Virus record (IMG/VR): IMGVR_UViG_3300043429_000757
Span: 1-64,000 of that record
Source: a virus
Length of the DNA: 64,000 nt
Strand: one strand, 5' to 3'
Made by a program: the position numbers and the translations under genes. Below, in pieces: positions 27,333 to 62,488 of the stretch (position 1 is its first letter; the number at the start of each line of letters is the position of its first letter). The notes under the pieces are model-generated. The model had not been told where the DNA came from and did not search any database. It worked only from the letters and a program-made list of their open reading frames with translations.

Positions 27333-29366
27333 TTACTGAGGGGCCCTGATGCGTTTCAAAGTCACGCCGTTCACAAGCACCTCTGTGCCGGGAGGATACC
27401 TGCGAATGTCTGCCTCGGAATACACAGCCGGAGGAAGGCCCAGTTGGCCCAGGAACTTCTGATACTCCATGGCCTTCTCGCGCGCTTTGCCCTTGTCCTC
27501 TGGAGAGAGTCCAGAGTCGTCGGCCCCCATCTTCCGGTAGGACGCGATCCCCTCGCGAAGAACTTGGCCAAGGGCGATGAGACGCGTGCCATAGACGTCA
27601 GGGTCAGTCCACGCGCTTGGCTGGATCGCCATGACCTTGTCGATGTTTTTCTGTTCCCAGACGCTGCCGGCCACGCTCTTGAGCATGGCCTCCTTCAAAC
27701 GCTCTGCCATAAGTTCAGCGTTCTTGCGCGCCAGCGTCACTGAGGATGCAGGGTCGCCCAGCCCAGGGATGGCTGACACGCCGGCGACCGCCGCCGCGCC
27801 TGGGCCCGCCACATCAAACCGGGTGGCCCACAGCGTCATGGGCCGTGGTCCTTGAGCCGCCGCACCTGCTGCGGGCGCACCTGCAGCCGGAGCCCCAGGC
27901 GCAGGCATCCCTGCCGCAGGCGCTGCACCAGCGGGCACTGCGGCAGGAGCCACCGCACCCGCTTCCGGAGCAGCAGGGCGTGCCCCTGCCGTGGGGTTCA
28001 TCACCGGTTGCGGCACGGTTGGCAGGCCCAGTCTCTTGCGGGCCGCCTCGGCCTGCGCCACAAAGTCAGGGAGCACACCTGGAACCTGCACGATACCTGG
28101 GATTCTTGTGACAGGGTCGACCTTGAGCTCTTGCCGTCCCAGTTTGAACTGCATGATGGCGGAGGCCATCAGCTTGTTTTCTTCAGCGTTGGTCAGGCCT
28201 TGGGCGTACCTGTCTGTGAGGCCAGGCATGTTGACGACGTTCCACTGCCAGTCGCCCTTGCCCCAGATTGAGTCACCCATCTTGAGCTTCTGAGCTTGAA
28301 GCTTGGCGTCAGCGCGCAGGACATCCTTGAAGATGTCCGTCTTGCGCTTGAGCAGCTCGTTGTTCTGGGTGACGACCTGGTCAATATCCTTCTCACCCTG
28401 CTGAAGGGCCAAGACCTTGATCTGGCGGTCGATCTTGTCCATGGCCTCCAGTTGCTTGCCGATCGCCGTCGGCAGCGTCTTGGTGGCCCCTGCCAGGCGC
28501 GAGAAGAAACTTCCCTTGAGCGGGCGGCCACCTTCGTCGACGTTGGCCGCAAAGCCAAAGGCCCGCTGGCCCAGCTCAAACAGCATCTGGGCTTCCGACA
28601 GCTTCCTGTCAGCGCCCAACGCCTTCTGGTACTCCGGCAGACGCGCCTCCATGGCGCTTGTCAGCGTGGGCACAGCAGCCGGGGCCCGCGCCAAAAGCTT
28701 GTTCATTTCCGTCTTGGCAGTGCTGACCATTGCCGGGTCAAACAGCATGTCCTCATCGTCCCGAGCGGTACCGTCAGCAGGGGTCACGCCGCTCGGATCA
28801 GACCCCGTTTGAAAATGTTGGACGTAGCCGCCGCGGGCCATCTGCACGGGCGGCGGGCCGCCTGCCGGTGGCGCATCAGCGCCGCCCATCAGCGCCGCAA
28901 TGCCGCCGTCTTGCGGGGGAGGCGCCATCTCTGCGCCAGGTGTGCCGGGGCCCATGGGCGGTGCACCAGGGGGCGGGCCGCCAGGGGCTGCTCCTTGGGG
29001 CCCAGGAGGCGCCATCGGGGGCTGTGGCCCTTGGGCCATGGCTTGTGAAGGAGGCAGCGCGCCAATCCCGCCGCCCTGGGCGAGGACGGGCTGAAGCATT
29101 GCGAGCACCGACTCGGGGGTCTCCGTGGCAGCGGCGTAGCCGACCATGTCGGCCAGTTCGTCGCGGCGCGCGTCGATCGAGCGCATGTCCCCGCGCAGGT
29201 TGTTCATGAGGATTTCGGGGGAATCCGGACGGCGTTCGAGGTACTTGCCCTCGCCCTCATCCTCGTCTTCGCCCTCATCCTCATCCTCTTTTTCGCTCAT
29301 GGAGTCCATGAACCCCTGCATGATCCCGACGTTTTCGATGTCGTCGTCCATCATTTTTTCTTTCAT
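27333..29366 (-). CDS. Proline-rich virion-module protein
   Basis: A 677-residue protein in four visible segments. The start is strongly acidic (EKEDEDEGEDEDEGEG around residues 25-40). A helical region follows (RSIDARRDELADMVGYA). Then comes a Pro/Gly/Ala-rich tract at about 110-160. The body is helical with further Pro/Ala linkers. It contains MARGGYV, a member of a motif family shared by other virion-module proteins here. No catalytic site is seen. It is probably an internal or injected virion protein, by position between two similar large genes. AAGGGG precedes the ATG. Confidence 0.55.
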   Translation of the reverse strand: MKEKMMDDDIENVGIMQGFMDSMSEKEDEDEGEDEDEGEGKYLERRPDSPEILMNNLRGDMRSIDARRDELADMVGYAAATETPESVLAMLQPVLAQGGGIGALPPSQAMAQGPQPPMAPPGPQGAAPGGPPPGAPPMGPGTPGAEMAPPPQDGGIAALMGGADAPPAGGPPPVQMARGGYVQHFQTGSDPSGVTPADGTARDDEDMLFDPAMVSTAKTEMNKLLARAPAAVPTLTSAMEARLPEYQKALGADRKLSEAQMLFELGQRAFGFAANVDEGGRPLKGSFFSRLAGATKTLPTAIGKQLEAMDKIDRQIKVLALQQGEKDIDQVVTQNNELLKRKTDIFKDVLRADAKLQAQKLKMGDSIWGKGDWQWNVVNMPGLTDRYAQGLTNAEENKLMASAIMQFKLGRQELKVDPVTRIPGIVQVPGVLPDFVAQAEAARKRLGLPTVPQPVMNPTAGARPAAPEAGAVAPAAVPAGAAPAAGMPAPGAPAAGAPAAGAAAQGPRPMTLWATRFDVAGPGAAAVAGVSAIPGLGDPASSVTLARKNAELMAERLKEAMLKSVAGSVWEQKNIDKVMAIQPSAWTDPDVYGTRLIALGQVLREGIASYRKMGADDSGLSPEDKGKAREKAMEYQKFLGQLGLPPAVYSEADIRRYPPGTEVLVNGVTLKRIRAPQ

Positions 29367-29381
29367 GTTGACCCCTTACCT

Positions 29382-31328
29382 TCAACCAAAAAGTCCCATT
29401 TTCTTCGCACCAGCGGCCGTGGTCAGAGCGCCGAGGCCCACGCCAACAGCCTGCTGGAACGGGCTTGCAGTGGGCTGGCTGGCCACCTGCGTCGACATCT
29501 GGCTCGACGGCGCGCCTTTGTAGATGTCCGACAGGAAGCCGGCCTGCTGGTACGGGGCGTAGACTTTCTGCAACTGGTTGGCACGTGCAGCATCGATCGT
29601 CTGTTGGTTGAACGCCTGCTGAGCCTGGCCCACGTTGTACAGAAAGTTGATGTCGCCCTGCTGCAGCGCCTGCGCAGTCTGACCCAGCGCGCCTTGCTGC
29701 ACGCCGAGTTGACCGAGTTGACCGGCCAACGCGCCAAGGCCCTGGGCCTGAGCCTGGCCAATGCCAAACTGCTGCCCGGCCAACTGGCCGATGCCCTGGC
29801 CAAGGCCTTGGAACTGCTGGCCCTGCTGGCCGTAAATGTTGGCGACCTGCCCGCCCATCTGGCCATACTGCCCGGCCTGCTGGGCGAGGAGGTTGGCGAT
29901 GTTTTGGTTGATGGCCGACTCCTGCCCGGCCAACGCGCCTTGCTGCGAGGCCAGGTTGCCATACTGCTGGGCCGCCTGCATAAACTGCCCGGCAGCCTGT
30001 TGGCCAAGCCCTGCCTGCTGAAGACCGAGCTGGCCAAGTCCCTGCCCTGCTGCAACCTGATTTTGTGCCAGGTTGCCGTACAGCCCCGCTGCGCCCTGAC
30101 TGAGCCCCGCCTGCTGCGCGGCAGCAGAGACCTGACCCTGGCCCGCGGCCATGAGCTGCTGCGCGGCGTTTTGGCCCAGCCCCGCCTGCTGCGCGGCAAC
30201 CTGCGCCTGCTGCGCCCCAAGCTGGCCAATGCCCTGCCCCGCCTGCATTTGGCGCTGCTGTTGCTGCTCAAACGAGGCCTGCGCCTGCGCCTGCGCCTGG
30301 GAGTAACCCTGGGACAGCAGGTTGGCGATGGTGTTGGCCTTCTGCTCCATCAGGTTGCGCTCCATCTCGGCGCGCTGCACTCCTTCACGCTCACCGCCAA
30401 ACGCGCCCGCACGGACAGCCTGCGCGGCCAGGCCCTGCTGCGCAATCGCCCCCTGGCGATTGATTTGCCGCATGGTCTCGTCGATCACCTGCTGGCGGTA
30501 CGGGTCCATGAAGGACTGCGCCGCGGCAGGGTTGTAGCCCTGCTGGGCGCCACCAAGCGTGCCAATGCCCTGGCTCAAAGCCTGCTCGGCCTGGCCAAAG
30601 CCCGGCTGGTTGGAAGCCATTGCAGAGGCCAGAGCCCCGCCGTACATGGCGTTGATGCCCTGCTCCATTCCGGGTGCTTGCGCCGATCGTGCAGCCATCT
30701 GCTGCGCCGTGGTCAATCCGCCAAGACCCTGGCCGATGACGTCCATGGCCGGCTGAAGGTTGGCCTGGCTGGACTGTGCCGCCATGTTCTGGGCCGTGGC
30801 CAGCGAGCCAAGGCCCGTGTTGATGTCTTGATAAGCCGGGCTGAACCTGCCGGAAGTGTCTGACGCCAGTGCCCGCTGCCCGGCCGCGCCCAGGTAACCA
30901 AGCCCCTGGGAGATTGGAGCAAGGCCCGCGGTCATGCCAGCAGTCGCACCTCCCGCCTGCTGCATGGCCCGCTGCGCGTCAGTGAACTGCGCCCGGGTGT
31001 CGGCTCCTCGCAGGATGTCAGCGGCCTCGGCCGTGGTGCCATAGGCCCCGCCAAGGGCCTGGTTGGCCGCGGCCATGTAAGGCGTAAACGCGCCTACGCC
31101 TTGCTGCTCGGTGGCCTGAATGGCCGCCAACTGCGCAGGCGAAAACCCCGCCACCTGGTAGGCGGGGAGCTGCTCGCCCAGCGGGGTGCGCTGCCCGATG
31201 ACGTTGCCCTGGTCATCAATGATGTTGTTGTAGGCAAGGGCCTGCGCCTGCTGAAGAAGCTTCAGCTTGTACGCTTCGATCTTCGGGTCTTCCCGAACGA
31301 TCTGTTGGGTGACTGTTTCTTCTGCCAT
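29382..31328 (-). CDS. Gln/Ala/Gly-rich repeat virion protein
   Basis: A 648-residue low-complexity protein. After a short unique N-terminus (to about residue 60), it is dominated by Gln, Ala and Gly with an imperfect repeat of the form GLGQLGxQQA / AGLGQxAAQ, roughly 10-18 residues long. This suggests an extended helical or fibrous structure. I recognise this type from marine and freshwater podovirus-like phages. It likely belongs to the internal core or tail apparatus. The DNA is repetitive in step (CTGxCC-type words), so recombination could change its length. Confidence 0.6.
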   Translation of the reverse strand: MAEETVTQQIVREDPKIEAYKLKLLQQAQALAYNNIIDDQGNVIGQRTPLGEQLPAYQVAGFSPAQLAAIQATEQQGVGAFTPYMAAANQALGGAYGTTAEAADILRGADTRAQFTDAQRAMQQAGGATAGMTAGLAPISQGLGYLGAAGQRALASDTSGRFSPAYQDINTGLGSLATAQNMAAQSSQANLQPAMDVIGQGLGGLTTAQQMAARSAQAPGMEQGINAMYGGALASAMASNQPGFGQAEQALSQGIGTLGGAQQGYNPAAAQSFMDPYRQQVIDETMRQINRQGAIAQQGLAAQAVRAGAFGGEREGVQRAEMERNLMEQKANTIANLLSQGYSQAQAQAQASFEQQQQRQMQAGQGIGQLGAQQAQVAAQQAGLGQNAAQQLMAAGQGQVSAAAQQAGLSQGAAGLYGNLAQNQVAAGQGLGQLGLQQAGLGQQAAGQFMQAAQQYGNLASQQGALAGQESAINQNIANLLAQQAGQYGQMGGQVANIYGQQGQQFQGLGQGIGQLAGQQFGIGQAQAQGLGALAGQLGQLGVQQGALGQTAQALQQGDINFLYNVGQAQQAFNQQTIDAARANQLQKVYAPYQQAGFLSDIYKGAPSSQMSTQVASQPTASPFQQAVGVGLGALTTAAGAKKMGLFG

Positions 31329-31331
31329 GGG

Positions 31332-33638
31332 TTACGCCTTTACAGCCCCGCCTTCGAGCTTTTTCATGAGTTTGTACATGCGTGCAGCTCCCTTGCGTCG
31401 GCTGCCGCCCCCAGCGTTGCGTACCGCCTTGGCGGTGAAAACGAACTCGCCATCCGACAGCATGGCTGGAATAGAGTCCGAAGTGCCCGTGCCCGGGCCG
31501 TTGATCGGGCCCGTCTTGCGCGGAAACTCAGTGGGCTGCGGCTGCCCGCCCTTGGCCAGCCTTTGGGGTTGGCCGTAGAGCAAAGGCACCCCGTACAGAC
31601 CTGCCATGTTGTAGGGCTGCGGTATCCCAGCAGGCCTGTTTGTGATGCCGCCGGGCGCCACGAGCCCCGGACCGCCAATCGGGATTGAAGAGTATTGCGG
31701 CGTCGGAATGACCACCGGTTGAGGCGCTGGTTGGGGCGTGTAGCCCCCTCCCAAACCGCCAGCGAACATGTTAGGGTTATCCCTCATGTAGTCAAGACCG
31801 GTGTAGTCGCGATTGAACGCCGGGTTGGGGTTGCTCGGCGAGCTCTTGAAGCCGCCGGCAGCACCGGCCACGGCCAGTCCGGTTGCCGCGAGCGGGCCGT
31901 ACTGACGGAAAAAGCTGACGTCTTTGGGCAGGCCCGGCCGGCTCGGCGAGATGTTCTCGCTGTAAAAGTCCTTGGCGCCTTGGGCCATGCGGCTGAAGAA
32001 GCCCGGCTCCTCTGATCCCGCCCCCGAGGGGACTGCTGCGCTTGGCGCCGTTGCCCCGGGAGCAGACCTCCCGTAAATTTGGTCCAGGGCGTCTTGGGAG
32101 GCGGCAGGGAACGAAGTCGCCGCCCCGGGAGCCGCAGGGGCCGCAGGGGCCGCCCCTGCTCCAGTGGCAGGACTGAACTCCAACGGCACCTGGGTGAACT
32201 TGCTCATTGGGTCCCTGGTGGCCAATGAATAAGACCTGGCACCGTTGCCTACATCGTACTCGTAGCGGCCCACGATCCTGTCGGGGAACTTTTGCTGCAA
32301 CTCCGCGACACGGCCAATATCCCCCTGTTGCGCGGCGTCATATGCTAGGCGTTGAGGAGAAATACCTTGCTCTTGCGGCTCAAATGGCATGAACCTGCTT
32401 GCCTGAGCGGAACCCTCGATTTCCACCGGGGACACAAGGTCTGCGGCGGTTCCAACGGCCCCGGGGGCGCCTGTTGGGGCAAGGTTCTGCGCCGTGATTT
32501 CGCCGCGCCTGAAACCCTCCTGAGCTCTTTGGCGTATGTCTTCCGCGGTCACGCGACCTTCGTCCAACAGGCCAGTGTTGTTTCGCACGCCTGCCATGGC
32601 GGCTGCGGAAGCGCCGGACATCAAGCCCATGCGCAGAGCGTCCTGCGTGCTCATGCCACCCAGCTTGCCAATGCCCGCGCCAATGACGCCTGTAGCCAGG
32701 CCAGTGTTCAAAGCAGAGCCTGCAATACCCGGCAAGTACTTGCCGACCGCTGCCATGGGGTTGGCGCCCATGACCGTGCCGCCGCCACCGATGTAACCCA
32801 TGGCACCGGAAATCAGAGCGTCTTTCACCGAGCCACCAGCCAATAGGGTAGTTGCGCCTGATGCCAGGGCCGTTGTGCCGGCAGAGCCTAGGGCCGCGCC
32901 AAGGGCAGTTGGTCCGAGGACCGTGGCCAACGCAATGGTGCCCAGAATGCGTCCGACAGGGGACTTGGCGACCTTCTTGACGACGTTGACAACTGACTTG
33001 ACAACCGACTTAATGGCGCTAAAAACTTTTTTGAGAAAGAACTCCGGCATGCCGGTGTTCGGATTGATTGTGCCCGCGCCGCCTCGGCTGCGCAAAAGCT
33101 GCGCCTCCTCCGGTGTGATGTGCGCCAGCATGGTGTCGCCACGGCGTCCTTGGGAGGCCAAATACGATGCAACGTCTGCCAGGCCACCCTGGGCCATGGG
33201 CATCGCTCCCATGTCCTCCATCGGGGGCTCCTCCATCATGGGTGCTTGCGCACCCTGGATGGAGGTCATTTTTAACTCGTTGAGCACCGTCAGGACAGCG
33301 CCGAGGAATTCCGGGTCGTACTCTTCGGGGATGTCTTCGGGGTCGATGACGTCATCGCGGATGAGCTCCTCGCGCATCTGCCTGTAACGGTCTGGGCGTT
33401 GGGAGAGCTGCTCAAACACCTCGATAAGCTGCTCAAGCTCAGACGGAGTCAACGCCAGCTCCTGCATGTTCTCACGCAAGGCCTGGCGGAGCATGTCCTG
33501 CTCCTCCGGCCGGGCCATTCCGAGGGCAGTTTGCGCAGCGTCGTACGCGTCGAAACTGGTTACCGTAGGCATCTGAGATGCCTGGTCGTCCTGCATGCCT
33601 GCCCCTTGGGGCAGCGCCATGATGCCTTCATTCGCCAT
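31332..33638 (-). CDS. Virion-module protein with GG motifs
   Basis: A 768-residue protein. The N-terminal part is acidic and helical. Around residue 170 it has MAQGGLADVASYLASQGRRG, then LAHITPEEAQLLRSRGGAGT, a combination I have seen in uncultured phage structural proteins. A Gly/Ala-rich, possibly membrane-active segment follows (ALATVLGPTALGAALGSAGT). The C-terminus includes SIPAMLSDGEFVFTAKAV and ends in LEGGAVKA. A ribosome site (GGAAAGGAC) supports the ATG at 33638. Its function is unknown but it is probably internal to the virion or part of the tail hub. It is served by the promoter at 33713-33742. Confidence 0.6.
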   Translation of the reverse strand: MANEGIMALPQGAGMQDDQASQMPTVTSFDAYDAAQTALGMARPEEQDMLRQALRENMQELALTPSELEQLIEVFEQLSQRPDRYRQMREELIRDDVIDPEDIPEEYDPEFLGAVLTVLNELKMTSIQGAQAPMMEEPPMEDMGAMPMAQGGLADVASYLASQGRRGDTMLAHITPEEAQLLRSRGGAGTINPNTGMPEFFLKKVFSAIKSVVKSVVNVVKKVAKSPVGRILGTIALATVLGPTALGAALGSAGTTALASGATTLLAGGSVKDALISGAMGYIGGGGTVMGANPMAAVGKYLPGIAGSALNTGLATGVIGAGIGKLGGMSTQDALRMGLMSGASAAAMAGVRNNTGLLDEGRVTAEDIRQRAQEGFRRGEITAQNLAPTGAPGAVGTAADLVSPVEIEGSAQASRFMPFEPQEQGISPQRLAYDAAQQGDIGRVAELQQKFPDRIVGRYEYDVGNGARSYSLATRDPMSKFTQVPLEFSPATGAGAAPAAPAAPGAATSFPAASQDALDQIYGRSAPGATAPSAAVPSGAGSEEPGFFSRMAQGAKDFYSENISPSRPGLPKDVSFFRQYGPLAATGLAVAGAAGGFKSSPSNPNPAFNRDYTGLDYMRDNPNMFAGGLGGGYTPQPAPQPVVIPTPQYSSIPIGGPGLVAPGGITNRPAGIPQPYNMAGLYGVPLLYGQPQRLAKGGQPQPTEFPRKTGPINGPGTGTSDSIPAMLSDGEFVFTAKAVRNAGGGSRRKGAARMYKLMKKLEGGAVKA

Positions 33639-33742: not shown

Positions 33743-33746
33743 CGGG

Positions 33747-34073: not shown

Positions 34074-34081
34074 TTTTTACC

Positions 34082-39708: not shown

Positions 39709-41856
39709 TTACGCCTGCGTGGTTACGGCGACAACATCCCAGACCCCGTCCGGCGCGTTGTAGACGCAGCCGACGTACGTTATCTTTGAGGCCGTTGTAG
39801 TCGAAGGCAGCGTGGTGCCTATTACGCGGTAGCTGGCACTCCAGCTTAGCGTCCGAGACACGCCGTTGTCCTTGATCCGAAGCAGCATCTTCTGCCCGTC
39901 ACCAGGCGTGCCGCTTGGCGCGTTGATCGTGGCGTTTGTTGCCAGTGCGTTAATGCAGTACTGGTTTCCAGAGTCCGCTGTCGGCGTAATTGTGGCCGCG
40001 CTGGAAATGGAGACAATCCCCGTTATCAGTCTCCCGCCAATCAGCTCCAGGCTACCGTTGAACGTGGCATTTGCCGAGTTCCAATAGGCCCTCGGGTTGC
40101 CGTCGCCATCAGACAGCACGATGTAGTTGCTGGCGGTGCGGATGTCGAGGCCGCCTTGGTTTCCATTGTAGGAACCGAGGATGGTGTTTTTTGCCCCAGT
40201 AGTTATGGTGTCACCAGAGCTGTACCCGACAAATGTGTTGTATGTGCCGGTAGTTATATTGTACGCGGCATAGTTGCCAACAAAAACGCTGTGTGTAACA
40301 GTCTTAGCAAATGATTGATTACCTGCCGCTCTGTACCCGATAGCCACATTTCTTGCGGAGTTCCCCCAAAGGAAGAGGTCGCTACAAAGGCTATACGCGC
40401 CTACAGTAACATTCTCCCCAAGACTCATGTAGTCGTACCCGCCAGATAGATAACCAACCGCCACTGACCCCGTACCAGTGTTATCCAATGCCGCATAAGT
40501 GCCTACGGCCGTGTTTTGACTACCAGACACTAGATTGGACAGAGAGCTCGTTCCGACAGCTACGTTTGAACTGCCTGTGGTTAGGTTGTAGAGGCTCTGC
40601 GACCCCACGGCTGCATTGTTAGCGCCTGATGACACAAACCTTAAAGAAAACGCTCCGATTGCGACGCTGCCGGCCCCGGTATTGCTTGCTGGGGTAGCAG
40701 AGCCATACATCGCGGAAATGCCAACTGCGACGTTATTTCCGGCGCGCATGTTGTACATTGCATTAAACCCAACCGCGGTGGACTGAGACGAGGTTGTGTT
40801 TGAGAAAAGGGCGTCTTTTCCTAAGGCGGTGTTGTTGTTTCCAGTTGTGTTTGAGCTTAGCCCCCCACCGCCCACGGCCGTGTTGCTGCTTACAGCCCCC
40901 GCGCCCAGGCCTACCTCAACCCCGCTGACACCAAGCTTGGCCCCGTCAAACGTGAGGTTTGCAGACTGCGCTACGGCACTCGAAGAGGATGCGTAGAACA
41001 CTCGGCCGGATGTGAACGATGAAAGGCCCGTGCCGCCGTTGGCAGTCGGCAGTGTCCCGGACACATCAGTGGTCAGTGCCACTTGAGCCAACGTGGAATT
41101 CGTGCCGTCGGAGCGCAGCACCCGGTTGGCTGTCTGCGTGCCGACCAGGGCATTGATCGCGGCCTGCTGTGTCGTCTGGCCAGTTCCGCCGTTGGCGATC
41201 GCGACCGTTCCCGTGACGTTTGAGGCCGTGCCGGTTGTGTTTTGGTTGAGAGTCGGGACGTCCGCAACCTGGATCGCGGACATTGACACGTTTGTGCCGT
41301 TCCCGCGCAAGTATTGACCCGAGGTCACCGCCCCTGCCAAAGCATTGATCGCAGCCTGCTGCGTCGTCTGGCCAGTTCCACCGTTGGCAATGGCCACGGT
41401 ACCTGTTACGTTGCCGGCTTCGACGCTGTAAAAGCTCGTGCCGTCCGTGAAGATCATTACCTTGTCGCCAGGGGCAATGACAACCGACTGCGCGCCTGGC
41501 GGCGTGGTGATTGGAGGCCCCAAGGACAGCCAGTTGTAGACGGTTGCTGGATATGCGGTGTCGTTCCAAATGACGTACTGCTTGGAGACCGGAGGCGCGT
41601 AGACGGTGAACGCCGCGGTGGTAGTGGTCGTAAACCGCAAAATGGCATACACCGCCTGGTTCGCGGACCCGGTCGCCGTAGGCCCGTTGAACGTGGTCAA
41701 TGCCTGGTCAGCAGAAGTGACTGACACCGTCTGGTAGCCGGCAATGGCTCGGTCAAAGACGTAGGCGAAGTTGTTGTTGGTGATCGTGCCCCATGTATTG
41801 GCCTCTGTGCCAGGGGTGATCAGCTCAACTCGAAGGCTCTGCGAATAGGTGCTCAT
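39709..41856 (-). CDS. Tail fibre with YadA-like repeats
   Basis: A 715-residue fibre. The N-terminus (SQSLRVELITPGTEANTWGT) is the family's virion-attachment domain, reaching to about residue 145. Then VTGTVAIANGGTGQTTQQ occurs twice in a near-identical duplication (about residues 150 and 215). Residues 330-580 hold trimeric-autotransporter-like head repeats (for example NNTALGKDALFSNTT and SSNVAVGTSSLSN). The C-terminal domain is beta-rich without a clear S74 chaperone. It is likely a trimeric receptor-binding fibre. Confidence 0.8.
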   Translation of the reverse strand: MSTYSQSLRVELITPGTEANTWGTITNNNFAYVFDRAIAGYQTVSVTSADQALTTFNGPTATGSANQAVYAILRFTTTTTAAFTVYAPPVSKQYVIWNDTAYPATVYNWLSLGPPITTPPGAQSVVIAPGDKVMIFTDGTSFYSVEAGNVTGTVAIANGGTGQTTQQAAINALAGAVTSGQYLRGNGTNVSMSAIQVADVPTLNQNTTGTASNVTGTVAIANGGTGQTTQQAAINALVGTQTANRVLRSDGTNSTLAQVALTTDVSGTLPTANGGTGLSSFTSGRVFYASSSSAVAQSANLTFDGAKLGVSGVEVGLGAGAVSSNTAVGGGGLSSNTTGNNNTALGKDALFSNTTSSQSTAVGFNAMYNMRAGNNVAVGISAMYGSATPASNTGAGSVAIGAFSLRFVSSGANNAAVGSQSLYNLTTGSSNVAVGTSSLSNLVSGSQNTAVGTYAALDNTGTGSVAVGYLSGGYDYMSLGENVTVGAYSLCSDLFLWGNSARNVAIGYRAAGNQSFAKTVTHSVFVGNYAAYNITTGTYNTFVGYSSGDTITTGAKNTILGSYNGNQGGLDIRTASNYIVLSDGDGNPRAYWNSANATFNGSLELIGGRLITGIVSISSAATITPTADSGNQYCINALATNATINAPSGTPGDGQKMLLRIKDNGVSRTLSWSASYRVIGTTLPSTTTASKITYVGCVYNAPDGVWDVVAVTTQA

Positions 41857-50079: not shown

Positions 50080-50304
50080 TTAGCAGACCGCCCCGCCCTT
50101 TTTGTAGCCCTTGGACATCATGCCGCCGCCCATCTTGCCAACGGGCTTGCCCATGGCCATGCGCTTGTGCTGATTCACAGCACCGCCCTTTTTCATCATG
50201 ATCGGGCCCGACGTCTTGCTGGGCTCAGATGTCACGTGGTTCTTCGCGCCGCTCATCACAGCACCGCCGCCACGAGTGGCGCATCCCATACCTTTTCCAG
50301 CCAT
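50080..50304 (-). CDS. Gly/Lys/Met-rich mini-protein with KKGGAV motifs
   Basis: A 74-residue low-complexity basic protein with MKKGGAV near residue 37 and ending in YKKGGAVC. Met and Gly are highly enriched. Its position among capsid and adaptor genes and the shared motif suggest virion association, but the fold is probably disordered. No family assigned. Confidence 0.65.
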   Translation of the reverse strand: MAGKGMGCATRGGGAVMSGAKNHVTSEPSKTSGPIMMKKGGAVNQHKRMAMGKPVGKMGGGMMSKGYKKGGAVC

Positions 50305-50306
50305 GA

Positions 50307-50504
50307 TCAGGCTCCTTTCTTCATTGCACGGCCCTTGACGTCGGCCGTTTTACGTTTCACAGCACGGCCCATCTTGTCGGCCATGTCGGAATTCTTCATC
50401 ATCGAGCCGTCAGGCATCTTGTGCATGCCTGCCATGCCGCCTTTGGCCATCTTGTTCTTGGCGGCGCGCATTCCGCGTACCGGAAGAGCTTTCTTGGTTG
50501 CCAT
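50307..50504 (-). CDS. Basic Met-rich mini-protein
   Basis: A 65-residue highly basic protein (MATKKALPVRGMRAAKNK) with MAKGGMAGM in the middle. Composition is similar to the preceding gene. It may bind DNA within the head or act as a small head protein. It is not matched to a known family. Confidence 0.6.
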   Translation of the reverse strand: MATKKALPVRGMRAAKNKMAKGGMAGMHKMPDGSMMKNSDMADKMGRAVKRKTADVKGRAMKKGA

Positions 50505-50754: not shown

Positions 50755-51039
50755 TCAGCACCTCCACCTCTTTCGCGCTTGGCGAAGGCGGCTGTTGGGG
50801 TCCTTTGCCGCGTCAGGAAACTGCTTCATCTGCCCCTCGGAACGCGCGCAATACGACGCCCTGCGCTTTGCTTCTGCCGCCGACGGTGTCTTGGTGGTCA
50901 CCGCCGTCTTCAGCTTGCTGCCAGGGTTGGCCTTGCGAAACGCTGCAACGCCTTTTTTGGTCATGCCGGCGCCGTCCTTGGTGGCGCGGAAATTCCCGCT
51001 CTTCACCGAGGCCTTGATGCCCATGCCTTTGGAAGCCAT
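50755..51039 (-). CDS. DUF6321-like basic protein
   Basis: A 94-residue basic protein. GAGMTKKGVAAFRKANPGSK followed by LKTAVTT and a KRRASYCARSEGQ region matches what I recall as DUF6321, a small family common in phages near structural genes, of unknown role. The ATG at 51039 overlaps the previous stop (TGATG); a GTG at 51042 is also possible. Confidence 0.75.
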   Translation of the reverse strand: MASKGMGIKASVKSGNFRATKDGAGMTKKGVAAFRKANPGSKLKTAVTTKTPSAAEAKRRASYCARSEGQMKQFPDAAKDPNSRLRQARKRWRC

Positions 51040-51341
51040 CACACTGCCGCTCCGCCGTAAAACATGAGCATCACGCTGGTCACCTGCGCATCATTGACGT
51101 CAATGAACACGCCATCCGAGAACAGGACGCCTACGTCAGGAAGAATGATGTCGTAAGCGCCGGCTGCTGCCGGGGTGATGACAGTGATCAATGCGGTGCC
51201 GGCTGACGTCGACCCGTTTTTCAGGGAAAAAGAGGACGCCGTCCCAGAGCATGTGTAGTAGAGGCCAGCAACACGAGTTCTACCCGCAATTGCTTGGGCA
51301 TCAGCAGTCTTAGTGACTGTTTGGATGTTGCTGTTGCTCAT
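51039..51341 (-). CDS. Small beta-rich structural protein
   Basis: A 100-residue protein starting MSNSNIQTVTKTADAQAIAG. Regular beta character (GLYYTCSGTASSFSLKNG, then VLFSDGVFIDV) resembles the 33747-34073 protein in general style. It could be a head decoration or fibre-base protein. It is near the capsid gene. Function unknown. Confidence 0.6.
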   Translation of the reverse strand: MSNSNIQTVTKTADAQAIAGRTRVAGLYYTCSGTASSFSLKNGSTSAGTALITVITPAAAGAYDIILPDVGVLFSDGVFIDVNDAQVTSVMLMFYGGAAV

Positions 51342-51795: not shown

Positions 51796-52704
51796 TTAGG
51801 CTGCGCCAGGCGAGCCAAAGATGCCGCGCGGATCGCTGAAGCCGAAGCTGTAGCGCTCACGAGCCTTGTAGCGAACGTTGCCGGTGTCGAAGTCGCCCTC
51901 GAAGCCGGTTTTGATCGCCACACGGGTAAAGCCCTTCATGCCGTTCGGGGCGTCGGTCTTGACAAACCATGCATCCGGATCGGTCAGGAAGTGGTTCACG
52001 GTATAGCCTTGCGGCACCATGCCCATGTTCTTGATCGCGTTCAGATCATTGTCGGCAGTACCAACACGCAGAGTCGACTTCAGGATGCGGTCGGCCGTGA
52101 ACATCAGCTCTTTCGGGATGATGAGCTTCAGGCCTTGGACGGCGATCTTCAGGCCACGCTCGTCGGTGAACGCAGCAATGTCGATCAGCGCCTGCTCCAG
52201 CGAGGTCTCCGACAGGTCAGCCGGGACAGCCAGCTCGTTGCGCAGGTCGGCGGCACCCAGGGTCGGGTGGTCGTCTGCACACAGAGGCTTGCCGTCGCCG
52301 CCGATCGAGGTGGTGAACGCGCCATTGAGCACGGCCGCCGCCTTGATCTGCTTGGTCTGAGCCATCGAACGTGCCAGGGCCTTGGTGTAGCGGGCCGACA
52401 AGCGGTCGTAGAGGTTGTCCTCCACGGCCTCTTCGGTCAGCGAGAACGCCAGGGCGATGGTCTCGTGGGTGTAACGAGCCGTGTAGACCTCTTGCGCCTG
52501 GTCGTAAGCGACGCCAGCGCCCTCAGTCTTCACGGGAGCTTCGCCGAAGCCAGATTCCATCACTTCTTCCTCGAACGCGCGGTCCGAAGTTTCCATGGTG
52601 TAAATCTGCTCGTGCTCGTTCTCGTAGTTCTTGTACTCCAGGCCAAACAGAGCATTGAGACCAGGCTCAAGCTCTTTCACCAGTTGTGCACGTGAAATTG
52701 CCAT
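51796..52704 (-). CDS. Major capsid protein, Mu gpT-like
   Basis: A 302-residue major head protein of the Mu-like gpT family (HK97 fold). Family traits are the N-terminal helix (QLVKELEPGLNALFGLEYKN), an acidic/aromatic loop, LAFSLTEEAVEDNLYDRLSA, a DDHPTLGAADLRNE segment, LKLIIPKELMFTADRIL and the C-terminal GFTRVAIKTGFEGDFDTGNV. Length is typical and no prohead protease gene is seen. It lies directly after head genes and is followed by a strong terminator. Scaffold and GroES-like genes lie upstream in the same unit. Confidence 0.9.
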   Translation of the reverse strand: MAISRAQLVKELEPGLNALFGLEYKNYENEHEQIYTMETSDRAFEEEVMESGFGEAPVKTEGAGVAYDQAQEVYTARYTHETIALAFSLTEEAVEDNLYDRLSARYTKALARSMAQTKQIKAAAVLNGAFTTSIGGDGKPLCADDHPTLGAADLRNELAVPADLSETSLEQALIDIAAFTDERGLKIAVQGLKLIIPKELMFTADRILKSTLRVGTADNDLNAIKNMGMVPQGYTVNHFLTDPDAWFVKTDAPNGMKGFTRVAIKTGFEGDFDTGNVRYKARERYSFGFSDPRGIFGSPGAA

Positions 52705-55500: not shown

Positions 55501-55773
55501 TCAGTATATCTTCACCGGACGGTTACCGTCCTTTTTCTTCACAACCATCGACGGTCCTTGCACGCCCTTGGCTTTTTTGATGACGTCACCGCCCTTGGCC
55601 ATCTTGCGTGACTTGCCCGCTTTGTCGTAGGCAATTGCTGCGGCCTGCTTCACTGCCGCGGCCTTGCTCTTTGGCTTGCTGGTGCCAATCATCCCGTCTT
55701 TCTTGTAGTCGCGCACGATCTCGCCAATGTTGGAGCTGATCGTCTTCTGACTTGAACCCTTTTTAAGCGGCAT
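55501..55773 (-). CDS. DUF6496-like basic protein after portal
   Basis: A 90-residue basic protein. MPLKKGSSQKTISSNIGEIV, then GMIGTSKPKSKAAAVKQAAA and AYDKAGKSRK match what I recall as DUF6496, widespread next to phage structural genes. It also has MAKGGDV. AAGGAG lies just before the ATG, which overlaps the portal stop by 11 bases. A DNA- or portal-associated role is possible. Confidence 0.75.
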   Translation of the reverse strand: MPLKKGSSQKTISSNIGEIVRDYKKDGMIGTSKPKSKAAAVKQAAAIAYDKAGKSRKMAKGGDVIKKAKGVQGPSMVVKKKDGNRPVKIY

Positions 55774-58096
55774 TTTGTACTCCTTGAGGTGCCTGCTGAG
55801 CCTTGCCCATCTGCAACGCCAACCGCTGCTGGTCCAGAGCGGTCTTCTGCTGCAGTCGTTGCTGATCCAGCGCCAGCCGCTGCTGGTCGATCTGGTTGTC
55901 TGCCTGGTCGTTCTGCGCGCGCTGCTGCAGCTCTTGCTGCTTGAGCGCGATCAGCGGGTCTTCCCCGCCGCCGCCAGAAAGCTCGTCTTGCATCGAGCGA
56001 ACCTCTTGCATGTACTGCGCAATCTTGAGCGCCACCATGCCTTCCTTCTGGATGACAGAGATCATGCGGTCTGGGTCGACGCCGTAGAGCTTGAAAAGCT
56101 CGGCTTCCACGTCCTCCTCGGCCTTCAGGCGCACGTGGTCCAGAATGTGGCGCTGCAGCATCATGGCTGACATCGGATTGGACTGCAAAATAGGAGACAG
56201 GCCCATCATCAAGTGTGCTGCAATGTGCGCGTCGTGCTGTTGGCCGGCAAACGCCTTGAGCTGCATGCCGTTGAGCACGTCGCCGTTCTCCGAGGCCGGG
56301 TCCCGAGGCCTCTGCGTGTTCTGAGGCAGCAAAATGCCGTCGATGTCTCGCACGTTGAGCGCCGCATACACGCGGTAGTAGGCCTCGTACATGTTGTGCA
56401 TGTTCGGGGCACTCTGTGCAAGCTGCAGCTGCATCTGAGCAAGCTGAATGCGCTGCGCGGTGCTGAAAATGTTGGGGTCGGCCACCGGCAGCACCGACAC
56501 CATGTCGTTGAAGTCCGATTTCTTGACGCGCCGGGACGCGCCAGGCACTTCGTAGGGGTACTCGTCGGGCAAGAAGGTGCCAAAGCCTTCAAACAGCAGC
56601 CTGAACTCCAGCGTCTGCGCGTAATGCATGCGCTTGTGGATGCTGGACATGACCATAGAGCCGCGCTCCAGCAGCGCCAGGGTCGTTCCGACCTGCGCGT
56701 ATTGGTTGCCGTCGCCAACTTGCATGTCCGCGGTGCTGGAGAGCCGTTTTCCGGCGTCCACGAGGAAGCCAAGCAGGCCAAAGAGCACCTGGCTGGGCTC
56801 TTTGTACGGCAGCGGCATGAGCGAGGCCGTGAGTTCGGCGCCGCCAGCGTCAATGTCGCGCCATTCGCCCGGCTGAATGGGCGTGGAGTCGTCCGCGATC
56901 CGCGCGCCCTTGGCTTTGAAGCCTGCCGGCAGGTTTGCGAGCGTGCCAGCGTCGATCAACTGGCGCAAAGCGCTCGTTGCGCCCTTGGAAAGGCCGCCAA
57001 CGAGGTGCACAAAGCCCAATCCGTACGCGCCCGGGCCCTCCACAAGCACGTAGTGGACGAAATAATTCTTGCGGTCCTTGTTTTTCGACTCTTCGCGCCA
57101 GTTTCGGCGCACTCCGATGACCTGCAGCGTGTCTTCGGCCAGCGTGACAACGTACGGTAGCTTGATTCCGGTCGGTTCGCCCTGGTCATCCTTGTCTTCA
57201 AAGCCTGGGATGTCCAAATCGACCATCATTTCCAGCAAAAAGACCTCGCCGATGTCATCCGTGGGCTGCACGCCAACCGCTTTGTTCACCGCTTCCTTGA
57301 TTTGGCTGGGATCAGCAGGCGATGCAGCGGTGTCGACCCTGACATCAAGGTACTCGCCGGCCACAACACGCTTGCGAAAGTCGTTGGAGTCCATCGCAAT
57401 GCGGTGCGTGATCCGCGCGCACTGGCTCATGACGCTCGAACCGTTGTACGGGATGTACACGTCGTCGGCCAGGCACAGTTTTGACACCATCCGGCCCAGT
57501 TGGTAGTCGTAGTAGACCTTCTTGAAGGTTGATCCACCGTAGCCGGTGTAGAAAAGTAGCTGATCAAACTCCGGTGTGTACTCCTCCATCACCGTTGTGA
57601 TCTGGTAGTTCATAAAATCCTGCACGCGCGAGGCCTGCTGGTACTTCTCCACCGTCTCTTTGCCCACGATTTGGCTGCGAACAGGGCCTCCGGCGGGCAA
57701 AAGCTCCTTGAATGCCTGTGCCTGGAACTGCACGATGGCCTCGGTGAGCATCGGATGGGCCACGCCAGAGGCTCCGCGGAAGGGCTTTGTGCGCTCTTCC
57801 ATGCGCAAGCCCAGCAGATCAAGGCCCTTGGCGTACATCTGCTCCCAATCGGAGCGCGAACCCTTGTCTGCCTCGAACAAAGCGCTCACGTCAAGGGCGA
57901 TCCTGCCCAGGTCGTCGGGGTCAATGACCTCTGCCAGGTTGGCGTAGAAGTCGACCTCGTCGGCTTCGTCCTCGCCGATCTCAACCGTGGCGCCTCCGTC
58001 CTCGTCGATGACCACCTCAATGTCCATCTCAGGCTCTGGTAGGCCCACTACGACGTCCAGAACGGGCGCCCGGTTAAGTGCTTTGTCGATTGGCAT
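55763..58096 (-). CDS. Portal protein, P22-like
   Basis: A 777-residue portal of the P22-like family, forming the dodecameric DNA gate. It has an acidic N-terminus, family segments KGSRSDWEQMYAKGLDLLG and PFRGASGVAHPMLTEAIVQF, FQAQAFKELLPAGGPVRSQI, then a crown and a Gln-rich helical C-terminus (IDQQRLALDQQRL, TALDQQRLAL) that could form a long barrel. TerL docks on it. It is preceded by the polyvalent gene and overlaps the DUF6496-like gene. Confidence 0.9.
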   Translation of the reverse strand: MPIDKALNRAPVLDVVVGLPEPEMDIEVVIDEDGGATVEIGEDEADEVDFYANLAEVIDPDDLGRIALDVSALFEADKGSRSDWEQMYAKGLDLLGLRMEERTKPFRGASGVAHPMLTEAIVQFQAQAFKELLPAGGPVRSQIVGKETVEKYQQASRVQDFMNYQITTVMEEYTPEFDQLLFYTGYGGSTFKKVYYDYQLGRMVSKLCLADDVYIPYNGSSVMSQCARITHRIAMDSNDFRKRVVAGEYLDVRVDTAASPADPSQIKEAVNKAVGVQPTDDIGEVFLLEMMVDLDIPGFEDKDDQGEPTGIKLPYVVTLAEDTLQVIGVRRNWREESKNKDRKNYFVHYVLVEGPGAYGLGFVHLVGGLSKGATSALRQLIDAGTLANLPAGFKAKGARIADDSTPIQPGEWRDIDAGGAELTASLMPLPYKEPSQVLFGLLGFLVDAGKRLSSTADMQVGDGNQYAQVGTTLALLERGSMVMSSIHKRMHYAQTLEFRLLFEGFGTFLPDEYPYEVPGASRRVKKSDFNDMVSVLPVADPNIFSTAQRIQLAQMQLQLAQSAPNMHNMYEAYYRVYAALNVRDIDGILLPQNTQRPRDPASENGDVLNGMQLKAFAGQQHDAHIAAHLMMGLSPILQSNPMSAMMLQRHILDHVRLKAEEDVEAELFKLYGVDPDRMISVIQKEGMVALKIAQYMQEVRSMQDELSGGGGEDPLIALKQQELQQRAQNDQADNQIDQQRLALDQQRLQQKTALDQQRLALQMGKAQQAPQGVQNAA

Positions 58097-58105
58097 GTCG
58101 TTTCC

Positions 58106-61100
58106 TTATGCGTGGGCCTTGATGAATGCCGTATTCTTGTCGACCAGGCCACCTTTTTTGAAGGGAACCCCTTCTTTTTTCACACGGGCAGCAGACTCGG
58201 TACCCCAAATCACTGCCGGATGCATTATCTCCGTGCCATCGGGCTTTCTCAACGTGACTGAGCTGTACTCGAAGCCCGGACCGAGGTCCTTGACCACTTC
58301 CTTGAGGTTACGAGGCAGCTTTTCGTAGAGCTGTGCTTGGGCGGACTCCGCTCCAGGGAACGCCACAAAGTTGACCCCGCGGTTGATTGCCGCTGCAATC
58401 GCGTTCTTTGCCATGAGCTGCTGGATCACCTGCGGGGAATTCTCCATGCCAGGGAAGGACTCTTTGAGTGAGTACGTCCCTTCTTGGATGCGCTTGTTGA
58501 TCTTGGCGATGTCGCTGTCAACCTTGCCAATCTGCTTGAGAACCTCGTTGTACCGATCGCCCGACTGCCCTGTTGAGCGAAGCTGCACGAACTCCTTCAT
58601 CAAGGCATCCTTCTTGTCCATCAACGGCAGATACTTCTCGTGGAAATCCGTCGACACGTTTCCGCCCAAAGGGCCCAGCTTGCGGATGTCGTCAAGCCGA
58701 TCCGATTGCAGCTCGTGGATATAAATCCCCTTGGTCGGGCCTATGCCAGGGATTACTGTCTCGTGTTCGGAGAATCGACTGAAAGCAATGGGGTCCGGGT
58801 CGTTTTTCAGGCCGGAGTGCTGGCCACGATACGGTTTTACGCCCGCAGAAATCGTCCGATCAAGTGCCGCCCGCAGGGACTGCCCCTCCCTTTGTATCTG
58901 CGACCTCAGGTCCCCCCTGAGAGCCTCTGTGATGTCCTCCACCTGCTTCTGAGCCTCTTTGTTGCCTTCGACAAGCCCGGGCACGTACTGCCTGATTTGC
59001 GGGACGTTGTACTGCGTAGCCAGTTTTTCAGCGGCTTCAGTTATGGTGTCCTCAGCGGCTTTTCTGGTTATCTGAAGCGACCCAAGAGCCTGCTGTTCTG
59101 GGTCGTTCATCCTTTCCCTAACCAGTCCTTTATACCTGCTGGAAAGGGTGGGATAGAGGAGGGTGTCTTCCAGATCAGCAAAGTCTCGTCTTGCTTTTTG
59201 CGCCTGCACATAAGGCGTGAACGCCGTGGTTATCTGGCTCACAAGATTGGGCGGGGTACTCTTGGTCAGCTCCTGAATGCTCCTGGACAGGTTGTTGACC
59301 TCTTCCTCACTCTGCCCGAGCGTGCCATAGGTCTTTGACCTGACATTGTCAAATAGTGTCTTGAGGCGCCCTGACTGCGCCGCCACCTCAGGCAACTGAT
59401 CCTGGATCAAATGGATTACGCCCATGGGGCGGTCCTGGTACGGGTTGTCCATCGTGCGATAGAAACTGGTCGAATCAGGCTCCACCACTTGAGTGCGATA
59501 TCGGGCCGGGTCAGAGGACTGCTTCAGACGATTGAGCAGGTCCGAAGGCGTGATCTTTGCCGTGGCGTCCAAGTCAGCCAGCGCCTCCTGTGCGCGGCCA
59601 ATTTCATGGTCACGGAACTTGCCCTTGAGCTGCCCCAAGATTTGATCCTTGCGCACCGGGCCAGGCAGCGACGCCGCAAATTGATCGATTCTGCCGACAA
59701 AGGGCGCGTCCGCCGTCGGCCTTGGCGTGTAGAGGGGCTCCGCCTCTCTGCGAAGCGGAGCCGCGTACGAGGCACCAGGCACTGCAAGCTGGCGGTTGTA
59801 CTGCTGGAAGTCCTTGGCCACGTCACTGGCGGCCTGGCCCGCGCGCCGCGCTGCGTTGACCCCGCCGCGCACAACACCGGCCGGGTTGACCAGGTTCGCG
59901 AGCGTCTCGCCGGCCGTGTAAAAGCCCTTGGCCGTCGGGTCCTCAGGAGGCGCCTGCCGCACGCCCGCGCGCGTCATCTTCTCCTTGATCCAGTCGCTGC
60001 CCATGACAGGCTTGTCGACGTTGTAGCCCAATGGACGCAGCGCCATCGTAGCAATGTCCACCGGTGCGCCCACCAGGTCGTACGGCAGCTCCGACGCTCC
60101 CTTGGCCGCGGCCACGTACGCCGAGCCAGTGTTGAGCGCATCGCTGATGGGACCACGCCTGCGGCCCTTGCCAGAGCTGGGCGTGACAAAGGCCGGGCGG
60201 CGCGCCGCTTCCAGCTCCGCGTCACTGACCTCGCCCTCCTTGGGGCTGCCCTCGGCGCGCTTGACGATCAGCTTGTCCAGGGGGATGATGTCCCGGCCGG
60301 CATTCATGCGGTAGCTCTGCGAAGGGATGACTTGCAGGCGCTGGTCCGGGGTCCACATCTTCCGGTCCTCAACCGCACGCGCTTCTGCCTCCCCCAACAG
60401 ACGCTTGTAGTACAGGTCGGCCGCGCCCTCTTGCGCAGCCCTGTCCATGGTCTTCAAGCTTTTCTTGTGGTAATCCAAGTACTCCTGGTACTTCTTGGCA
60501 ATCTCCGGGGTCACTTCATCGCTCTGCCACGCCACTTTGGCAAACTTTTCAATCGAGGTCGGCTGAGCCATACGGCCCCTGACCTCCTTCAAAATTTCAA
60601 ATGCCTGAGGGTCATTGAAGGCCATGTTCTTTGAGCCACCTTGGCCAAAGCCCTCTCGGAACTGAATCCCGTGCTGCAACTCATGAAGCATGCCCTTGGC
60701 GTTCTCGTTCTTCCCGCCAGCGGTGCCCAAACGGATCGACGCGCCAGGCCCCGACCCGCCCATCAGCACGCTGCGCGTAGAGTACGGGTCCTTGCTCGTC
60801 ATGATCTTGCCCAGCTCAGGGTAATTCGCGAAGAGTTCCGGATGCGACAGCACCCGCTCCGCCGGACCCTGTAGAACAGCCTCACGAATCGTCGCGCCTG
60901 CGTCCGATATTTCCTGGCGCCACATGCCGTCCGGAGCCTTGAAGTTGCCCGTCGCCTTCCAAACCTCCTCAGGCGCGGCGCCCTGCTTGGTCATCTTCTG
61001 GGCCAAGGCATTGGAGGCCGCGTTCCAGCCCTTGGCGCCCTTGCCAATAAAAATTCCTGCCAGCGCCCCAGGCACGCCCACGCCAGGCATGTTGCCCAAG

Positions 61101-62488
61101 GCCTGGCCAGTGCGATACGCGTCACTGCCCGAGGCGCCCGGCTCAAGGCCCGCGTAACCACGCAGTCCTTCCATGACAGGAGAGACAATCGACTTGAGCG
61201 CACGCGAGGCGCTGGACTCCTCGGTCACCGGCTGCTCTTCGGGAGAGCTTGTCACCTCACCGCCCTTTTCAAACCGGCGCACGCCCAGCGTCTCCGAAGT
61301 CAAGGTGGGCTGCTCCAATGTGGGCGCGCCCAGCGTCGAGCGCATCAGTCCGCGCGACTCGTTTTCCGCCGCGCGCAGCTTGAGCTTGTACTGCTTGGCC
61401 AAAGCCTGCAGTTGCTCCTTGGCAGACTTGCCGCCCTTGCCCTTGCTCTTGGGCTCCTTGATCGCAAAGTCCTGGCCCGTGGCCAGCGGTCCAGCAGCCA
61501 ACTCCATTTCCTTCGGAGCCGCCGCGCCACCGCCAGAAGGCACCATCACCCGGCTCATGCCGACAGCCTGACGGGGACTGGTCCGCGGACCGAGGTCCTC
61601 GAGCATCTGCTGCGACTGCGACAGGTAGTCGGCCGCGGCCTCGTCTTCAGTCTGCGGCTCACTCGCGTCAATGAGCGCGTTCATCGCATCAAGGCCCGCG
61701 GAGCCGCCCTTGGCAAAGGACTGCACCGGTGTCTGCTGCGGCGCGCCATATCCGGCGTACTGGGCCAGCAGCTGCTGGTAGTAGCCCTCCGAATCAGGCT
61801 CTTCAGACTCTTGCACGACCTCGCCTCCTTCAGCAAAGTGCTCGACCTCCCCGCCATGGGCCATGAAGCGATTGGCCACGGACATTGAGCCGAAGTTGAA
61901 CCTGTCAGGATTGCTTACAACATCAATCGCCAGCGCGCGGTTTGCCGCGTCGGTCTTTGCCCGCTGCGCCGCCGCCTGCTGGTACTCCTGAACTTCCTTC
62001 TCTTCAAACGGCAGCGTCGGCGCCGTCATGGAAAACGCCTCAGGCGTCTTGGGCGCTGTCATCTCAAACTTGCTCGCCACCACCGGCTCAGAAGGGCCAG
62101 CGTAGTCCGTCTCGCGGCTGCCGGCGTTCCAGTCATTGACCGCCTTCTCGTACGCCGCGTACTGCGACTCGTACGGCTTGTAGACCTCTTCGTTGTACTT
62201 GGCCGCCGCGTCGTTGTAAGCCTTGACCTGCGCCTGGTACGGGTTGTACACCTCAGTCTGGTACTTGGTCAACGCGTCGTTGTAAGCCTGGCGCTGGCGC
62301 TCGTAGTCCTCCAACATCTGCTGGCGCTGGTTCAAGTACGCCTTGTCAGAAGGCCGCAGAAAAACCGTCTGCCCCGGGTTTGCAATCCCGCCCACGGCAA
62401 AGTTCTGGATAGGCTGCGCCGTGTTCAGGTCAACAGGCTGAGACAGCGCGTCATCAGTAAGCCGGTAGGGCGAGAGATCGTCTTGCAT
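58106..62488 (-). CDS. 1460-residue polyvalent protein with zincin-like HELQH
   Basis: A giant multidomain protein between terL and portal. Residues 60-120 hold two and a half 22-residue Tyr-rich repeats (AYNDALTKYQTEVYNPYQAQ type). GG motifs (FAEGGEV, FAKGGSA, FEKGGEV) follow. A domain around 500-725 has HELQH (residues 602-606), FREGFGQGG and the downstream GEAEARAVEDR, a probable metallopeptidase of the type found in large polyvalent proteins of phages. Later regions are helical, and a C-terminal domain (INRGVNFVAFPGAESAQAQL) resembles another polyvalent-associated module. It is likely packaged and injected. Confidence 0.7.
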   Translation of the reverse strand: MQDDLSPYRLTDDALSQPVDLNTAQPIQNFAVGGIANPGQTVFLRPSDKAYLNQRQQMLEDYERQRQAYNDALTKYQTEVYNPYQAQVKAYNDAAAKYNEEVYKPYESQYAAYEKAVNDWNAGSRETDYAGPSEPVVASKFEMTAPKTPEAFSMTAPTLPFEEKEVQEYQQAAAQRAKTDAANRALAIDVVSNPDRFNFGSMSVANRFMAHGGEVEHFAEGGEVVQESEEPDSEGYYQQLLAQYAGYGAPQQTPVQSFAKGGSAGLDAMNALIDASEPQTEDEAAADYLSQSQQMLEDLGPRTSPRQAVGMSRVMVPSGGGAAAPKEMELAAGPLATGQDFAIKEPKSKGKGGKSAKEQLQALAKQYKLKLRAAENESRGLMRSTLGAPTLEQPTLTSETLGVRRFEKGGEVTSSPEEQPVTEESSASRALKSIVSPVMEGLRGYAGLEPGASGSDAYRTGQALGNMPGVGVPGALAGIFIGKGAKGWNAASNALAQKMTKQGAAPEEVWKATGNFKAPDGMWRQEISDAGATIREAVLQGPAERVLSHPELFANYPELGKIMTSKDPYSTRSVLMGGSGPGASIRLGTAGGKNENAKGMLHELQHGIQFREGFGQGGSKNMAFNDPQAFEILKEVRGRMAQPTSIEKFAKVAWQSDEVTPEIAKKYQEYLDYHKKSLKTMDRAAQEGAADLYYKRLLGEAEARAVEDRKMWTPDQRLQVIPSQSYRMNAGRDIIPLDKLIVKRAEGSPKEGEVSDAELEAARRPAFVTPSSGKGRRRGPISDALNTGSAYVAAAKGASELPYDLVGAPVDIATMALRPLGYNVDKPVMGSDWIKEKMTRAGVRQAPPEDPTAKGFYTAGETLANLVNPAGVVRGGVNAARRAGQAASDVAKDFQQYNRQLAVPGASYAAPLRREAEPLYTPRPTADAPFVGRIDQFAASLPGPVRKDQILGQLKGKFRDHEIGRAQEALADLDATAKITPSDLLNRLKQSSDPARYRTQVVEPDSTSFYRTMDNPYQDRPMGVIHLIQDQLPEVAAQSGRLKTLFDNVRSKTYGTLGQSEEEVNNLSRSIQELTKSTPPNLVSQITTAFTPYVQAQKARRDFADLEDTLLYPTLSSRYKGLVRERMNDPEQQALGSLQITRKAAEDTITEAAEKLATQYNVPQIRQYVPGLVEGNKEAQKQVEDITEALRGDLRSQIQREGQSLRAALDRTISAGVKPYRGQHSGLKNDPDPIAFSRFSEHETVIPGIGPTKGIYIHELQSDRLDDIRKLGPLGGNVSTDFHEKYLPLMDKKDALMKEFVQLRSTGQSGDRYNEVLKQIGKVDSDIAKINKRIQEGTYSLKESFPGMENSPQVIQQLMAKNAIAAAINRGVNFVAFPGAESAQAQLYEKLPRNLKEVVKDLGPGFEYSSVTLRKPDGTEIMHPAVIWGTESAARVKKEGVPFKKGGLVDKNTAFIKAHA

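Follow-up and report, generated by a model that had tools for sequence, protein, structure and literature searches.

Why does one short motif, built around two glycines, recur in otherwise unrelated proteins of a single phage? The question is raised by a stretch of viral DNA of 64,000 nucleotides (positions 1 to 64,000 of the IMG/VR record IMGVR_UViG_3300043429_000757; "the window" below means this whole stretch), in which a sequence-only reading had listed copies of the motif in six virion-module genes and had suggested that they were docking motifs for packaging into the head or core, or double-glycine processing sites. We found that the motif recurs far above chance and is under selection. 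Judged by its distribution, we lean, by a small margin of belief, toward a portable short linear docking tag, internal and repeated, carried by the virion's cargo and ejection proteins.

Recurrence and conservation of the GG motif

Strict copies were counted as matches to [MFLY][AKE]xGGx[VA]. Every copy that had been listed was found in the six genes, all on the minus strand, as are the motif sites and modules described below. Small proteins are encoded by three of these genes: a protein of 74 amino acids (aa) rich in Lys, Gly, and Met (50080..50304), with MKKGGAV at 50176-50196 and a C-terminal YKKGGAVC at 50083-50106; a basic protein of 65 aa (50307..50504; MAKGGMA at 50430-50450); and a basic protein of 90 aa adjoining the portal (55501..55773; PHROG 2423), with MAKGGDV at 55582-55602. 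The others encode an ejection-module protein of 677 aa (27333..29366; MARGGYV at 28821-28841), a tape-measure-like ejection-module protein of 768 aa, called TMP769 (31332..33638), and, between the terminase and the portal, a polyvalent payload protein of 1,460 aa recognized by Pfam LPD23 and a motif scan (58106..62488). This last protein has two further strict copies that were missing from the list, FAVGGIA and MAHGGEV. Synonymous codons differ between motif copies, so the motif is a protein-level one, and a DNA repeat was rejected. Read from the sequences, the consensus is [F/M/Y]-A-x-G-G-x-[V/A/I], with a freshwater form FAKGGEV and a marine form FAxGGRV-G-F/Y.

The six motif genes (3,134 aa) hold 12 strict copies against 0.28 expected from a composition shuffle (maximum 3 of 2,000) and 0.42 from a dipeptide shuffle (maximum 3 of 300), and the other 28 virion genes of the window (9,542 aa) hold 0. 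The six were picked post hoc, and the weight therefore rests on independent tests in relatives and in a survey. We counted 89 strict copies in 49 nonredundant freshwater payload proteins against 2.6 expected (5.5 with every GG fixed), 26 in 69 marine payload proteins against 1.1, 112 in 83 TMP769 homologues against 8.3, and 30 in homologues of the 677-aa protein against 1.6. For 810 structural genes (portal, capsid, scaffold, adaptor, and terminase; 354,000 residues), whose families are not mutually independent, the count was 2 against 17.2 expected, a depletion. These were the checks that the sequence-only reading had named: the motif count lies far above the shuffles in the window and in relatives, and a motif search showed the motif to recur and to be conserved in relatives. 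Its remark that terminase, capsid, and fibre genes carry no copy proved true of both as well.

When all GG pairs in the freshwater payload proteins were taken with no regular expression imposed, F at -3 was enriched 5.8-fold and V at +2 2.6-fold, with 2.2-fold enrichment of both K at -1 and E at +1; A was also enriched at -2. In pairwise payload alignments (25 to 75% identity), GG was 97% and the first residue, F or M, 77% identical, compared with just about 28 to 45% at positions downstream of the motif. Short, conserved above its flanks, and recurrent in unrelated proteins, the motif has the traits of a short linear motif.

In the unselected survey, a viral collection was scanned for DNA encoding FAEGGEV or its scrambled version FEAGGVE, which yielded at least 120 stretches for the former and 61 in all for the latter. 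Among the matches listed for FAEGGEV, 112 of 119 loci had it in frame within a gene (scrambled, 35 of 61), further strict copies were present in 52 of the 112 genes (3 of 35 for the scrambled pattern), and for 75 of the 112 the locus included window-type virion genes (1 of 61 scrambled loci). Survey genes that were initially unrecognized include tape-measure proteins and polyvalent domains, and one gene of 2,196 aa has seven strict copies together with PBECR5 and ART-PolyVal. Several motif proteins are Gly-rich, and a composition rich in Gly, Lys, and Ala might by chance produce such matches; however, the composition, dipeptide, and GG-fixed shuffles were all exceeded by large margins, and with the scrambled-pattern scan as a further control, we regard chance as ruled out.

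With a 618-aa structural protein as the query, the nearest annotated relative was the freshwater phage DSL-LC04, and the next were the pelagiphages HTVC027P and HTVC023P and the roseophage CRP-902; judged by these relatives, the window phage is podovirus-like. The corresponding genes of DSL-LC04 carry MANGGIV, FAMGGIA with FANGGIA, MKDGGAV with YKMGGSA, and MKSGGSV, and one further small gene carries YAKGGLV. Both motif sites of the 74-aa protein are retained in this phage, and MAKGGDV of the 90-aa protein is retained in 9 of 17 homologues. The gene between the terminase and the portal has 2.2 strict copies per thousand residues at 80 metagenomic loci centered on related portals, where the terminase, portal, scaffold, and capsid have none in 98,000 residues. 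Another 80 loci, of pelagiphage type, have the motif in the gene between the terminase and the portal and in a small basic protein, often in the marine form, in which GG is followed in turn by Arg, V or I, G, and F or Y; their portal, capsid, and scaffold are free of copies.

Motif sites in the payload protein and the ejection module

The payload protein begins with a carrier of about 412 residues that holds five motif copies, followed by the payload, with a sixth copy near the C-terminus. The motif scan placed the carrier copies at residues 30 (FAVGGIA; 62381..62401), 209 (MAHGGEV; 61844..61864), 218 (FAEGGEV; 61817..61837), 258 (FAKGGSA; 61697..61717), and 406 (FEKGGEV; 61253..61273), the last at the carrier end directly before the payload, and the sixth at residue 1443 (FKKGGLV; 58142..58162). 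In a 23-row alignment, Gly 261 and 262 of FAKGGSA are invariant columns, as are the F, GG, and E of FEKGGEV. An LPD23 domain marks the payload start (residues 479 to 534; 60887..61054; Pfam E=1.4e-10), and a zincin-type HExxH motif, HELQH, occupies residues 602 to 606 (60671..60685). Large, multidomain, with LPD and peptidase domains, and encoded among virion genes, this protein is a polyvalent protein, a class argued to be injected in the passages of PMC5512222 cited here.

At the same locus, DSL-LC04 encodes a PcfJ-domain protein with FAMGGPV, MADGGLV, and FAEGGEV within its first 61 residues, and across relatives the gene between the terminase and the portal bears differing payload Pfams (LPD23, PcfJ, DUF6973, and others). 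Homologues of the LPD23/zincin payload were found as gp3 of EBPR podovirus 3, as a 2,213-aa protein of Pseudomonas phage AF that adjoins internal virion proteins, and as a 3,799-aa structural protein of the F116-like phage Epa33. Their location among virion proteins supports delivery of the window's payload, and the motif-bearing proteins are probably injected into bacteria. Of the three homologues, those of EBPR podovirus 3 and phage AF lack the motif; as far as these sequences go, the tag follows the phage lineage, not the payload. DUF6973 was the commonest payload domain found, present in 9 of the 38 proteins scanned (L010, L011, and others), and is a candidate injected effector.

The last carrier copy, at residue 406, precedes the payload, with LPD23 at 479, as would suit a processing site at which a protease cuts at GG during assembly and frees payloads from carriers. 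A FATGG sequence is present in lambda gpH (residue 733), and the tape-measure proteins of lambda and T5 are cleaved during assembly (PMC10038345). However, the one mapped tape-measure cleavage that we found, that of T5, falls after Arg1127 (PMC10038345), cuts at many copies, such as that at residue 30 or those a few residues from a C-terminus, would free nothing obvious, and the motif persists in payloads with no recognized peptidase. We found no evidence that speaks positively for the double-glycine processing proposed at first; among the window proteins searched, neither a head maturation protease nor one that cleaves at GG was recognized, and we consider such processing quite improbable.

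TMP769 has PHROG tape-measure matches at its C-terminus and no Pfam match. Its motif MAQGGLA (residue 148; 33177..33197) takes the form MA[QESKDR]GGLA in nearly all homologues; three of them (L107, L142, and L144) have F in place of M, which suggests that M and F are equivalent at the first position of the motif. LAKGGQP (residue 694; 31539..31559) has an invariant GG and a nearly invariant AK among 34 aligned homologues, and the C-terminal LEGGAVKA (31335..31358) has, likewise among 34, an invariant LEGG and V. Both had been counted as copies; the two sites are indeed conserved in 33 relatives, but they match the pattern given for the motif only in part. Across 77 loci around TMP769, two sites recur, MA[QESKDR]GGLA at about residue 150 and another copy toward the C-terminus; in the 677-aa protein, MARGGYV is kept near residue 182 in most homologues.

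A module, GRRGDTMLAHITPEEAQLLRSRGGAGTINPNTGMPEF (33039..33149), lies just after MAQGGLA and is similar, by eye, to an N-terminal stretch of some payload proteins. With this GDTxLAxLxP stretch following the motif in TMP769 and standing at the start of some payload proteins, and with carrier stretches common to the freshwater payload proteins, the motif might be a remnant of a small homologous carrier domain that is mobile, rather than an independently evolved linear motif. We think this very unlikely: the three small proteins (65, 74, and 90 aa) have copies, as do marine payloads of separate similarity clusters, and copy number and position vary between relatives. Even if it were true, the motif sites would still be under selection. 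The fuller stretch, GRxGDTxLAxLxPxxAxLLxxxGGAGTxNPxTGLxEY, was seen in TMP769 and at the N-termini of the payload proteins of L029, L057, and L060, and is loosely like the SIPA module described below.

As to position, several copies had been described as lying in linkers or at, or close to, C-termini. That is partly right: some sit at the C-terminus, but of 76 copies in relatives of the large payload protein, just 6 are within 25 aa of the end. The motif sites that we checked fall in low-confidence segments of two weak models, those of TMP769 (mean predicted local distance difference test score, 48) and of payload residues 1 to 1180 (mean, 46), both too low for fold searches, and are probably unstructured. 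Lying often between modules, and in such segments, FAxGGxV could be a conserved beta-turn or hinge between modules of proteins that have to unfold and thread through the portal and tail, with no specific binding; GG is the most conserved part of the motif, and the motif commonly adjoins the SIPA module within one chain. We nevertheless regard a hinge as unlikely. The conserved F or M at -3 and the enriched A at -2 and V at +2 exceed what flexibility needs, and the 74-aa basic protein, small as it is, has two copies. Moreover, two large ejection-module proteins have no strict copy: the 648-aa putative DNA ejection protein (29382..31328; weak PHROG 4287 match), a motif-free negative within the module whose homologues at the 77 loci have 0 copies in 41 kaa (thousand aa), and a 1,107-aa protein with none in 24 kaa.

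The SIPA module as a candidate partner

Under the docking-tag reading, copies in flexible linkers would bind one common partner during assembly, with repeated copies adding avidity. Ejection proteins would thus collect in a compartment together with small basic proteins and polyvalent effectors, all to be ejected from it with the DNA, and new payloads could be made deliverable by recombination behind a tagged carrier. The docking motif originally suggested agrees with the distribution, namely, interchangeable payloads, the ejection module, conservation, and absence from the shell, but a head-shell or portal partner is not supported. CRP-902 has close portal, capsid, scaffold, and adaptor homologues yet no motif, and HTVC104P shows the pattern without a detectable homologue of any of these (E<1e-3).

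The end of TMP769 bears a module that we call SIPA (GPGTGTSDSIPAMLSDGEFVFTAKAVRN; 31416..31499), present as GPGTGTSDSIPAMLSDGEFVF (GTSDSIPAxLSxGEFV) and common to siphophage tape-measure proteins, which have it with adjoining GG copies. On co-occurrence, this module, or something traveling with it, is the leading candidate for the partner, better than the portal or capsid. In a small panel of phages, motif enrichment was found in the window, DSL-LC04, HTVC027P, and HTVC104P (the last on a looser regular expression only), all of which have the SIPA module; CRP-902 and Pag-Yong1, with portal and scaffold present and the SIPA module absent, showed no clear enrichment. In the survey, the module was present at 26 of 119 FAEGGEV loci among the matches listed, in the same protein as the motif in 23 of the 26, and at 0 of 61 scrambled loci. 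As an observation apart, SIPA connects siphophage tape-measure proteins with podovirus-like ejection-module proteins (31416-31499, minus strand; L242-L245 and L331).

Several points weigh against the docking-tag reading or its proposed partner. Payload proteins within each set have part of the carrier in common, and their counts are not fully independent. One of the two strict matches in the Epa33 homologue falls inside the payload-homologous stretch, and by a disorder scale, the flanks of the motif were no different from background. The survey also caught ordinary terminases, RecA, and helicases with a motif match, so a single match is not diagnostic. The phyletic link between SIPA and the motif comes from few phages, four positive and none clearly enriched among the rest, several of them partly read; HTVC023P, whose genome was read in part, was ambiguous. 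Finally, SIPA lies in the same chain as the motif, and if it is the partner, its role may be intramolecular.

Gene context, known targeting signals, and significance

Profile searches with the window proteins identified the terminase (62530-63990), the portal (55763-58096; PHROG 1216), and a Mu gpT-like capsid protein (51796-52704; Pfam Phage_capsid_4), along with GroES and structural and lysis genes, the structural and lysis genes being on the minus strand. On the same strand, fibre-like proteins at 39709-41856 and 43282-47058 have long runs of AVGxxALYN-type repeats, with repeat types in common, and a 300-aa protein at 41896-42798 consists of degenerate repeats, SVEDSSTQQSAFL and variants, and has no PHROG match. 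A DUF6321 protein (50755-51042, minus strand), which in several PHROGs forms the C-terminal part of much larger proteins, was found in HTVC010P and HTVC104P as well.

The capsid targeting sequence of T4, carried by IPI-III and Alt, is a short peptide that engages the prohead core and guides packaging (PMC7411985). The motif is likewise a short peptide on otherwise unrelated proteins, which are injected in T4 and probably so here. The T4 sequence, however, is N-terminal, about 10 to 20 aa long, single, and removed by gp21, whereas the motif is internal, repeated, and 7 aa long, and no processing protease was recognized among the window proteins searched. In P1, DarB has an N-terminal signal that spans between 9 and 30 residues; for a reporter, the first 30 residues of DarB are enough (PMC9024508). 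This signal, too, sits on a large injected protein, which it directs to the head; it is N-terminal, and the P1 authors report that Dar N-termini have no consensus in common, unlike the many proteins here that share one. If the docking-tag reading holds, the motif would act much as these signals do, but we do not class it among capsid targeting sequences because its copies are spread, some near C-termini and just 19 of 76 in the first tenth of the protein.

The polyvalent proteins of Iyer et al. (2017; PMC5512222) resemble those described here in having LPD23, PcfJ-like, ART-PolyVal, PBECR5, and HExxH near virion genes; the cited passages of that study describe no shared linear tag, whereas here the tag spans different payload domains. 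Siphophage tape-measure proteins, such as those of Pan1, Vibrio phage VH2_2019, and Arthrobacter phage Anekin, have the SIPA module with GG copies alongside, but they work in the tail tube, not in a podovirus head. In lambda gpH (L440, residues 733 to 785), FATGGFT and YATGGYV flank a GEFVF stretch by eye, and the SIPA profile had no significant match to this protein. Our literature searches for the motif letters or for a GG motif in phage virions found no description of the motif.

How large effector proteins are chosen for packing and injection has been worked out mainly for T4 and partly for P1. If the docking-tag reading is true, interchangeable cargo of an abundant phage group, found in fresh and marine waters, would share a common, repeated tag of seven residues. 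Such a tag would offer a sequence rule by which injected proteins, most of them of unknown function, could be predicted, and a short peptide to try as a means of bringing reporters into particles. It is also conceivable, and we put it forward tentatively, that FAxGGxV serves widely as a code by which injected proteins are loaded, with the SIPA modules of tape-measure-like proteins as its readers in short- and long-tailed phages alike; if so, the injected effector sets of many uncultured phages would be readable from sequence alone.

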